From contig CAUJGP010000024.1 in assembly GCA_963170155.1 (NCBI GenBank), forward strand, positions 186,001-250,000: DNA of 64,000 nt. Reading direction: 5' to 3'. This DNA is from Bdellovibrionota bacterium. Its GTDB lineage: Bacteria; Bdellovibrionota; Bdellovibrionia; Bdellovibrionales; Bdellovibrionaceae. The notes under the pieces are model-generated. The model did no database searches and was not told the origin of the DNA. It saw only the letters and a list, made by a program, of their open reading frames with translations. A program made the position numbers and the translations under genes. Of the stretch, positions 37,953 through 40,745 are shown piece after piece. The stretch's first letter is position 1. Each line of letters starts with the position of its first letter.

Positions 37953-38621
37953 ATGAAACGAAGAGAGTTATTAAAATGGAGTTTGGGTGCAGGAAGTGCG
38001 TTAGGTGTTGCGACGTTAGCAGGCGCAGCCCCTCTATGCGCAGGTAAAACACCAGCGCAGACGGAGGGACCTTTTTACCCTGTGGCAGATCAAATAGACA
38101 AGGACTGGGATTTGACCTTTGTGAAAGGCATAACGCAAAAAGCGCAAGGTGAAGAGATTGTTGTTTTAGGTCAAGTGTCAGATCAAAACTGTCAGCCACT
38201 AAAAGAGACTTTAGTAGAAATATGGCAAGCTTGCGCCAGTGGTAAGTATAATCATCCTAATGATCCCAATAATGCACCTTTAGACAAAAACTTTCAATAC
38301 TGGGGGAGAGCCATGACCAATGAAGAGGGTTTTTATCTTTTCAAAACTATTTTACCGGGAGATTACCCTGCGGATACCCATTGGATCCGTCCTCCTCATA
38401 TTCACTATAAGGTACAAAAATGGGGCTTTAGGGAGCTGACCACTCAACTCTATTTTGCGGGTAATAAATATAACGATACAGACCATATTTTGAATCAAAT
38501 ACCGCGAGCTGAAAGAGGCAAAGTCGTTCGTCCTATCGAACTCCAAGATATTGAATTACCTGGGGAACAAAGAGCTCGCTATCCTGTGGTTCGGTTTGAT
38601 ATTGTACTGACAAAGGCATAG
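37953..38621 (+). CDS. exported intradiol ring-cleavage dioxygenase
   Basis: Non-heme Fe(III) enzyme of the protocatechuate 3,4-dioxygenase/catechol 1,2-dioxygenase family. It begins with a twin-arginine-type signal (MKRRELLKWSLGAGSALGVATLAGAAPLC), so it is probably Tat-exported. The core shows TEGPFYP, GQVSDQNCQPLKETLVEIWQA, GKYNH (Tyr ligand), GRAMTNEEGFYLFKTILPG and RPPHIHYKV with the two His ligands. The 222 residues match the short secreted subclass. No other aromatic-degradation gene is near, so its substrate (a catechol or catecholate-type compound met outside the cell) is unknown. Confidence 0.9.
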   Translation: MKRRELLKWSLGAGSALGVATLAGAAPLCAGKTPAQTEGPFYPVADQIDKDWDLTFVKGITQKAQGEEIVVLGQVSDQNCQPLKETLVEIWQACASGKYNHPNDPNNAPLDKNFQYWGRAMTNEEGFYLFKTILPGDYPADTHWIRPPHIHYKVQKWGFRELTTQLYFAGNKYNDTDHILNQIPRAERGKVVRPIELQDIELPGEQRARYPVVRFDIVLTKA

Positions 38622-38789: not shown

Positions 38790-38890
38790 TCTGAAGTTCA
38801 AAGCAAACAGAGATATAGGCTCTCTATGCTGAAGTGAAATTGGACCAAGGTGGCGAAATGGATTTCGTTTTCAATAAGTTCTGAAGTTCA
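38790..38890 (+). promoter_or_regulatory. direct repeats upstream of the bufferin-like operon
   Basis: TCTGAAGTTCA occurs at 38790-38800 and again at 38880-38890, and the shorter CTGAAGT also at 38829. The last copy abuts the ribosome site (AAGGAGGA) of the precursor gene. Between them CGAAAT-GG-ATTTCG (38854-38867) is a perfect inverted repeat. These are candidate operator sites, with the regulator unknown. Confidence 0.4.
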
Positions 38891-38906
38891 GTAAGGAGGA
38901 ACTTTT

Positions 38907-39206
38907 ATGAATACCAAGATTGCATCGTTACTCACAACAGCGGTTGTGACAGGGTTATTAGCCTCTCAAGCCGTAAAGGCGGAAGGCACAGCAAAGCCCG
39001 GAAATACCTCAGAGAAGGCAGCGGGAGAAAAGGGAGCTTGCTGTGGTGAAGAGGGAATGAAAAAAATGAAAAAGGAAGGAAAATCCGGTTGTTGTGGTAA
39101 AGGTGGATGCGGAGGACGCGCCACGGGAGAAACGAATGCGGTTGATGCTAAAGCAACAAACGAGTCGGCAACACCAACAACAAAGCCTGCTGGCAAAGGT
39201 AGATAA
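38907..39206 (+). CDS. secreted Cys-rich RiPP precursor (bufferin/HvfA-like)
   Basis: A 99-residue precursor with a Sec signal peptide ending in VKA near residue 25. After a Gly/Lys/Glu-rich stretch come the cysteines: C45-C46 in GACCGEEG, and C62-C63 and C68 in GCCGKGGCGG. A Lys-Met segment lies between (MKKMKKEGK), and a Thr/Ala/Pro-rich tail without Cys follows. Together with the next two genes it matches precursors whose cysteines are oxidised by a DUF692 enzyme to heterocycles (oxazolone/thioamide in HvfA-type, thiooxazole in bufferins) that bind copper. The EGKSGCCG stretch recalls the EGKCG motif of HvfA but is not identical, and it is unlike the DUF2282-type bufferins. AAGGAGGA precedes the ATG. 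Metal identity and modification are inferred. Confidence 0.8.
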   Translation: MNTKIASLLTTAVVTGLLASQAVKAEGTAKPGNTSEKAAGEKGACCGEEGMKKMKKEGKSGCCGKGGCGGRATGETNAVDAKATNESATPTTKPAGKGR

Positions 39207-40102
39207 TGAATCCGCTTTTTAAGGATTTGGGTGTTGGGGTGGGACTACGTCCTGCCCACCGCTCGATTTTTTTGGAATCTCCTCCCAAGTCAGTATCGTG
39301 GGTGGAGGTTGTGACTGAAAATTATATGCCTTGGGAAAAAGAAGGCTGGGGAAAGTCGTTTCAAATGCTTTCTCGAATCAGAAAAAACTTTCCAGTAGCA
39401 TTGCATGGAGTCTCACTCAACCTTGGTTCTGTTGATACATTGGATCCTCATTATCTTTTTCGTTTGAAACAGTTGGTGAACCAAATCGAGCCTGTCATTA
39501 TTTCAGATCATCTCGCTTGGACAGGCATTAATGGTGAAACGCTTCATGATCTTCTGCCGTTGCCTTACACGCAAGAAGCGCTGAATAATATTATTTTCAA
39601 AATTGATCAGGTGCAAAACTATTTAGGTCGAAGAATCCTGATTGAAAATCCATCCAGCTATCTTGAATTCAAAAACCCTGAAATGTCAGAGGTTGAATTT
39701 CTCAAGCAAGTATTGAAAGCCGCGGATTGCGGCCTCTTATTGGACATAAATAATATTTATGTTAGTTCTGTGAATCATGGATTTAATCCGAAAGAGTATT
39801 TAAAAGAAATTCCTGGTGATCGCGTTGGCCAGATTCATTTGGCGGGCCATAGTGATCAAGGAGATCATTTGATCGACACTCATGATGCTCCTGTTGATCC
39901 CAAGGTATGGGATCTTTACAACTATTCCCTCGAATTATTTGGAGTCAAAAGCACGATGCTTGAGCGGGATGAAAAAATTCCAGAATGGAGCGAACTAGAA
40001 ATCGAGCTTTTAAATATTGGAGTGATACAAAATGAATTCATTAAATCTAACCGAACTTCAGATCTTGCTTCACGCATCCATTCGCCATCAGCAACCTTAT
40101 GA
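39206..40102 (+). CDS. DUF692 multinuclear non-heme iron oxidase (MNIO, BufB/HvfB)
   Basis: TIM-barrel enzyme of the MbnB/BufB/HvfB family that oxidises cysteines of the partner precursor using an iron cluster. All family blocks are intact in the 298 residues: VGLRPAHRSIFLE, VEVVTENYM, ALHGVSLNLGS, ISDHLAW, HDLLPLPYT, LIENPSSYL, LLLDINNIYVSSVNHGF, IHLAGHS, DTHDAPVDPKVW and TMLERDEKIPEW, which supply the His/Glu/Asp iron ligands. Its ATG shares a base with the precursor stop (TAATG). Its last 71 bases overlap the DUF2063 gene. This is the catalytic centre of the operon. Confidence 0.95.
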   Translation: MNPLFKDLGVGVGLRPAHRSIFLESPPKSVSWVEVVTENYMPWEKEGWGKSFQMLSRIRKNFPVALHGVSLNLGSVDTLDPHYLFRLKQLVNQIEPVIISDHLAWTGINGETLHDLLPLPYTQEALNNIIFKIDQVQNYLGRRILIENPSSYLEFKNPEMSEVEFLKQVLKAADCGLLLDINNIYVSSVNHGFNPKEYLKEIPGDRVGQIHLAGHSDQGDHLIDTHDAPVDPKVWDLYNYSLELFGVKSTMLERDEKIPEWSELEIELLNIGVIQNEFIKSNRTSDLASRIHSPSATL

Positions 40103-40745
40103 TGAATTATTCGAAGTCATTAAGGAAGCCCCTCCTATTTCTTCTCAGAAACGGATTGATATTTACCGGAGGGCTTATCAGATTCGTCTAAGTGAGTGTT
40201 TACGAGAAGACTTTACGGACACTTGTCAGAAAATGGGAGAAGTCGCTTTTGAAAAAATAATTCAAATGTACATTGATGAAATTCCGCCGAAGACGAGTCA
40301 GCTTGCGGAATACAGCGAAGGTTTCGTGGAATATTTAAAAAACAGCTCGGGGGATGTTTATGAAACAGCTGCAAAAGAGTGGATGGTGATTCTCTCTCAA
40401 AGAGCTCAAGAACCTCTGTATAAGCTTACCTCGGATCAAATTCAAATGGGGGAACCTTATCTCATCCAACTTCATCCTGCCACTCAAATAAAGAAGCTGG
40501 TCCATACCACAGTGGTTTCTTATCGGCTTAATGAAGAGATATTTTTTTTAGATGTAGAGGCTTCAGAATCACACTGGATTGTTTATTTTCGAGAACCTCG
40601 GTCTTTGGATGATTTGAAGGGGCTTATCGGAAAAGGGGAAATCTTGGAAGAAGAACTGATGAATTTACTATTTCAATGGATGAAGAAAGAAATTATTTAT
40701 TGTTTACCTCCCTTTGCCAAACAGAACGATTTTTATCGTTTTTAA
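40032..40745 (+). CDS. DUF2063 partner protein (BufC/HvfC)
   Basis: Precursor-recognition and helper protein that acts with DUF692 enzymes. The 237 residues start with a helical region typical of DUF2063 (SSQKRIDIYRRAYQIRLSECLREDFTDTC), and continue with a second domain of mixed structure (LIQLHPATQIKK.., IVYFREPRSL..) resembling a winged or RRE-like fold. No metal motif is seen. It starts inside the preceding gene, with a 71-base overlap, and runs 42 bases into the 3' end of the convergent sugar transferase. No DoxX (HvfD-like) gene follows. Confidence 0.9.
   Translation: MNSLNLTELQILLHASIRHQQPYDELFEVIKEAPPISSQKRIDIYRRAYQIRLSECLREDFTDTCQKMGEVAFEKIIQMYIDEIPPKTSQLAEYSEGFVEYLKNSSGDVYETAAKEWMVILSQRAQEPLYKLTSDQIQMGEPYLIQLHPATQIKKLVHTTVVSYRLNEEIFFLDVEASESHWIVYFREPRSLDDLKGLIGKGEILEEELMNLLFQWMKKEIIYCLPPFAKQNDFYRF

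Follow-up and report, generated by a model that had tools for sequence, protein, structure and literature searches.

A three-gene operon of a Bdellovibrionota bacterium, a relative of the predatory Bdellovibrio, probably represents a RiPP cluster of the captophorin/bufferin type, in which the cysteines of a C-x-G core would be modified, the product would chelate copper in the periplasm, and additional cysteines would have arisen by replacement of lysine. The operon lies within a window of 64,000 nucleotides, by which we mean the whole stretch of DNA that was analyzed. By analogy with characterized relatives, its product very probably belongs to a known class of secreted metal-binding peptides, and the unusual paired cysteines of the precursor look like a small change within that class and not like a system of a new kind.

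The precursor, MNIO and DUF2063 genes are tightly packed (Table 1). The ATG of the MNIO gene begins at the final A of the precursor TAA codon (TAATG), and the MNIO and DUF2063 reading frames overlap by 71 bases, the latter having its own GGAG; overlaps are usual at this second junction in relatives. A preliminary description of the locus had reported a secreted 99-residue precursor with five cysteines and overlaps of 1 and 71 bases, and we confirmed these features base for base. The cysteines occur in the contexts ACCG (C45, C46), GCCG (C62, C63) and GCGG (C68). Scanning the operon yielded neither repeats nor a convincing promoter or terminator, and neither a second MNIO nor a second precursor was found in the same 2.85-Mb genome. 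A gene of the intradiol-dioxygenase family with a possible twin-arginine signal (window positions 37953-38621, same strand) is located 285 bases 5' of the precursor; it probably does not belong to the operon, because a different gene stands upstream of the related precursor at locus L002.

Table 1. Features of the operon, in window coordinates.
Feature	Coordinates	Strand	Basis and remarks
5' leader with strong Shine-Dalgarno AAGGAGG, ahead of the precursor ATG	38881..38906	+	read from the sequence
RiPP precursor gene, ATG start, 99 aa	38907..39206	+	phmmer match to L002 precursor; precursor alignment
Signal peptide, codons 1-25	38907..38981	+	Sec type, cleavage AVKA/EG; carries [AT]x[hydrophobic]xG[LIMF]; probable recognition leader
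CCG, codons C45-C46-G47	39039..39047	+	alignment of ten precursors
CCGKGGCGG, codons 62-70	39090..39116	+	alignment of ten precursors
MNIO (DUF692) maturase gene, BufB type, 298 aa	39206..40102	+	PF05114, NF050167, conserved residues
DUF2063 + RRE-type partner gene (PME type 1), 237 aa	40032..40745	+	PF09836, 3DEE profile match

The MNIO matches the Pfam family MbnB_TglH_ChrH (PF05114) with an E-value of 3.2e-99, passes the NCBIfam MNIO_BufB model (NF050167; 344 bits, cut-off 310) and keeps the conserved motif positions, including the predicted base in ERD. Its partner matches the DUF2063 domain (PF09836, E 1.4e-14), and a profile of the partner family has a single PDB match, the gonococcal DUF2063+RRE protein 3DEE, with the match spanning both domains (positions 1-241, E 0.0022). 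An AlphaFold model of the lone DUF2063 protein, built from the single sequence, was too poor (pLDDT 44) and was set aside. Judged by its sequence, the partner combines a DUF2063 with an RRE-type domain, as in type 1 PMEs, and with an MNIO, a PME1 partner and a secreted Cys-rich precursor encoded directly upstream, the operon can be assigned by gene anatomy to the MNIO-PME1 class. The family and cut-off results, together with a recurring gene order, bear out the earlier view of the locus as a RiPP operon that joins MNIO and DUF2063 genes to a secreted precursor rich in cysteine.

MNIO enzymes were searched for at the level of the order, class and phylum in 369 genomes, together with their flanking DNA. 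We obtained 110 distinct enzymes, 81 of which have a credible secreted Cys-rich precursor encoded upstream; back-translated MNIO peptides, used to scan GTDB contigs, gave no match. The order precursor-MNIO-DUF2063 is met repeatedly in the phylum, the precursor being secreted and rich in cysteine, and the window precursor matches that of the nearest relative, L002 (49% over 47 aa in BLAST; E 5e-10 in phmmer with a set of 80), therefore it is no chance open reading frame. Many phylum precursors are BufA2-like (ECHGxNSCKGKGxCGG...) and come near the NCBIfam cut-off for BufA2; with this model (NF050166) other phylum precursors score 55-68 bits and that of L126 scores 23.8. The window precursor has no Pfam match at E<=1, hence none of the DUF2282 domain that marks BufA1, no meaningful match in NCBIfam and none to NF050166 at E<=1. 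Searching the genome of the window with NF050166 likewise gave no match, and the precursor carries five cysteines versus six conserved in BufA2.

In a quick tree the window MNIO falls within a clade of 12 (support 91), whose precursors (those of L002, L003, L106, L004, L005, L111 and others) are short, mostly Lys-rich, and carry CKG, CGG, CSG or CNG motifs. The six named loci, with unclassified Lys-rich CKG precursors, have the nearest enzymes (up to 62% identity), and their precursors share the signal-peptide motif described below and alignable cysteine positions, that of L002 being clearly homologous. They differ from the window precursor in having CKG or CGG, never CC, and some are followed by a DoxX gene. 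The lack of a DoxX-like partner had been listed earlier as a feature of the window operon. Indeed there is none at the locus (two weak DoxX-like genes occur elsewhere in the genome), but several relatives (L005, L028, L029, L014 and others) also have none directly after the operon, so this absence does not mark a new subtype.

Other loci in the phylum depart from the common arrangement. At L025 and L027 one MNIO is preceded by two tandem Cys-bearing precursor genes, and an MNIO copy at L021 (genome G030) has several altered motifs (SDSICW, LTNVASY, no ERD) and looks like a decaying gene. Within the genus Bdellovibrio, a secreted YceI gene is followed by MNIO and DUF2063 genes at L011-L013, L015, L032, L033, L036, L038, L039, L042, L163, L172 and L176, with no Cys-rich precursor between YceI and the enzyme pair at those loci. 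Nine of the 11 Bdellovibrio genomes scanned have no match over the cut-off of the BufA2 model; genomes G067 and G078 show the order YceI-BufA2-MNIO-DUF2063. Either the substrate was lost from the Bdellovibrio YceI-MNIO-DUF2063 loci and the enzymes were kept, or these enzymes act on another substrate.

Most of the phylum MNIO precursors (58 of 81) carry the motif [AT]x[LIVMAF]xG[LIMF] within the hydrophobic stretch of the signal peptide. Of 120 control reading frames with secreted-like starts, 4 have it, a contrast that is indicative only, because the controls were called mechanically. In the window precursor the motif lies within TAVVTGLL. HvfBC acts far better on full-length HvfA than on HvfA without its signal peptide (PMC13419390), which makes this motif a good candidate for a recognition leader, a role that it may have on the strength of a correlation.

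The arrangement of the cysteines is best read, from the alignment and the tree, as a CKG core in which lysine was replaced by cysteine, and not as an HvfA-like EGKCG core. Across all phylum precursors the most frequent residues following a cysteine are KG (121), GG (44) and AG (39), therefore the CCG, CCG and CGG of the window precursor fit a C-x-G core. In an alignment of this precursor with nine related ones, C45, C62 and C68 occupy nearly invariant cysteine columns, and C46 and C63 stand opposite mostly lysine. The Cys-Lys motif itself is absent, Cys or Gly replacing Lys at all three sites. Among the 81 Bdellovibrionota precursors, to which the rarity of the pair applies, a CC within the core occurs in only one other, that of L125 (KDGCCGEGEKC), which belongs to another family of the class. 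Its sister L126 has the core GCKGKGECKG (KSGCKGKGECKG), so that the change from lysine to cysteine can be read directly there. In the enzyme tree, a quick version with many weak forks, the two CC carriers do not group together, and the branches that separate them with good support require CC to have arisen twice. The paired cysteines are seen in one genome of this lineage and in one distant parallel. A CC at L009 was considered as a further case and set aside, as it lies upstream of the likely start and outside the core.

These results alter several points of the preliminary description. Its observation that the core differs from EGKCG and from DUF2282 types stands, but EGKCG as the closest core is not supported; the relatives have C-x-G, mainly CKG. 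Conservation of the cysteines among homologs holds for C45, C62 and C68 and fails for C46 and C63. The proposed "distinct subtype" is not upheld: the core is C-x-G, and lysine gave way to cysteine twice independently, each time beside CKG or CGG precursors.

Published work distinguishes MNIOs by substrate type. In FonB, Arg15/Arg16 and Phe250 are tied to the Lys-Cys type and Asp249 is the catalytic base; Cys-Lys MNIOs do not conserve Arg16 and have Asp at the Phe250 site, whereas Lys-Cys MNIOs have Arg and Phe (PMC13097082). The window MNIO has R15, P16 in place of Arg16, D255 as the predicted catalytic base and E256 at the Phe250 site, a pattern that favours the Cys-Lys group, with Glu instead of Asp at the variable site. 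Because the residue there varies widely across the phylum (E in 34 and D in 31 of 108 MNIOs, together 65; A in 16, G in 8, S in 5, Phe in none), this clue is a soft one. The leaning towards the Cys-Lys group makes C45, C62 and C68 the predicted targets. No residue is shared specially by the enzymes of the two CC loci; the window MNIO has Ala104 within SDHLAW, where 98 of the 108 MNIOs have Cys, and L125 retains that Cys.

The sequences themselves establish the gene anatomy, the families of the two enzymes, the homology of the precursor to CKG-type precursors and the pattern in which its cysteines are conserved. For the chemistry, the role of the leader, the order of export and the involvement of copper, we infer from published relatives (PMC13097082, PMC12452194) the following course. 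Translation of the coupled genes would yield the precursor in the cytoplasm, where the DUF2063/RRE partner would recognize it, probably via the signal peptide. The MNIO would then carry out a four-electron oxidation of C45, C62 and C68 in the C-x-G core to 5-thiooxazoles, which occur in all characterized MNIO-PME1 products (PMC13097082). Sec would export the modified peptide to the periplasm, where it would chelate copper, probably as Cu(I). C46 and C63, at the sites of ancestral CKG lysines, could either be thiols beside the heterocycle, serving as extra soft-metal ligands, or be modified as well. A copper-binding product, tentatively proposed at first, is most likely by analogy with characterized relatives. 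Against the explanation as a whole speak the occurrence of the CC pairs in one genome and one distant parallel, the softness of the Phe250-site clue, the weak forks of the tree, the lack of a metal-resistance gene beside the operon, and the finding that a related Microbulbifer cluster was not induced by copper (PMC12538549).

The preferred reading has to be weighed against others that assign the cysteines differently. The CCG could represent EGKCG with the preceding lysine replaced, in which case the second cysteines, C46 and C63, would be modified. EGKSGCCG does resemble EGKCG by eye, and FonBC tolerates Ala, Arg or Thr before the cysteine (PMC13097082). We consider this Lys-Cys register quite unlikely, however, as it would place the modification on the cysteines that are not conserved in the alignment, while close relatives have CKG and not KCG; the enzyme lacks Arg16 and Phe250, a residue seen at that site in 0 of the 108 phylum MNIOs, and scores 252 bits with the HvfB model of NCBIfam, below its cut-off of 360. 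The two cysteines of each pair might instead both be converted, giving directly linked tandem 5-thiooxazoles with up to five modified residues and a new chelating chemotype. The glycine after each second cysteine is the residue favoured after the modified cysteine in FonA, FonBC is fairly broad on residues preceding the cysteine (PMC13097082), and the twofold origin of CC would fit a gain of function. Still, the literature examined holds no example of tandem thiooxazoles, the first cysteine alone suffices for the conserved pattern, and a ring on it may block the enzyme at its neighbour; full conversion is considered unlikely. A broader proposal is that each CC pair forms a single processing unit, yielding either tandem 5-thiooxazoles or a thiooxazole-thiol pair, and that it was gained twice independently by Lys-to-Cys change in CKG precursors, perhaps with a shift in metal preference; this likewise has a rather small chance of being correct.

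It is also conceivable, although very improbable, that the CC pairs serve chiefly as simple thiol ligands or form a disulfide, with enzymatic modification partial or lost. Relevant here are the HMA-domain proteins of Geobacteraceae L071 and L090, which end in GGCCGKGGCGGKN or have SGCCGKGGCG near the end; these tails seem to be independent metal-binding elements whose sequence coincides with a portion of the window core, and the stretch CCGKGGCG is therefore in use elsewhere without an MNIO nearby. A search for the exact pattern CCGKGGCG in 84,980 GTDB species genomes gave 60 matches, none with an MNIO near; they are mostly unrelated or spurious reading frames, some resemble methylamine-dehydrogenase light chains by eye, and two are the HMA-domain tails just named. 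The occurrence in Bdellovibrio of MNIOs without a Cys precursor would also agree with plain thiols. Against this stand the intact enzyme pair, its overlap with the precursor gene and the retention of conserved residues.

Among known systems, the Cys-Lys captophorins (BufA2/BufB2/BufC2 and relatives; PMC13097082, PMC12452194) share with the window operon its gene order, in which a secreted Cys-rich precursor is followed by the MNIO and then the DUF2063/RRE partner, as well as the C-x-G core and a BufB-type enzyme that has lost Arg16 and is acidic where FonB has Phe250. The window precursor differs from them in its lack of an NF050166 match, its five cysteines with two CC pairs, the replacement of the post-Cys lysine by cysteine and a C-terminal tail unlike that of BufA2. 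HvfA/oxazolin and fontiphorin (Lys-Cys, EGKCG) agree with it in the superfamily of the enzyme, the type of partner and the secretion of the precursor, but the window precursor has no EGKCG repeat, and Pro16, Glu256 and the HvfB score speak against membership. The DUF2282 bufferins (BufA1) follow the same operon logic and differ in the DUF2282 domain with its four conserved cysteines, which the window precursor lacks, and in sigma/anti-sigma genes, none of which adjoin the window precursor. Vicinal cysteines are also present in the proposed MNIO substrate of adjamnio-IV (PMC12452194), which differs in its CxxCC motif, in lacking a signal peptide and in being reported as precursor-MNIO only.

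The window operon would extend the copper-peptide RiPP class in the Bdellovibrio lineage. It also offers a natural experiment on the residue following the modified cysteine, which is lysine in most relatives and cysteine in the window precursor and, independently, in L125. The interest lies in whether the CC pair is modified once or twice; if both cysteines are modified, a tandem bis-thiooxazole would result. Either a tandem thiooxazole or a thiooxazole-thiol pair, if true, would be a chelating unit new to the class.
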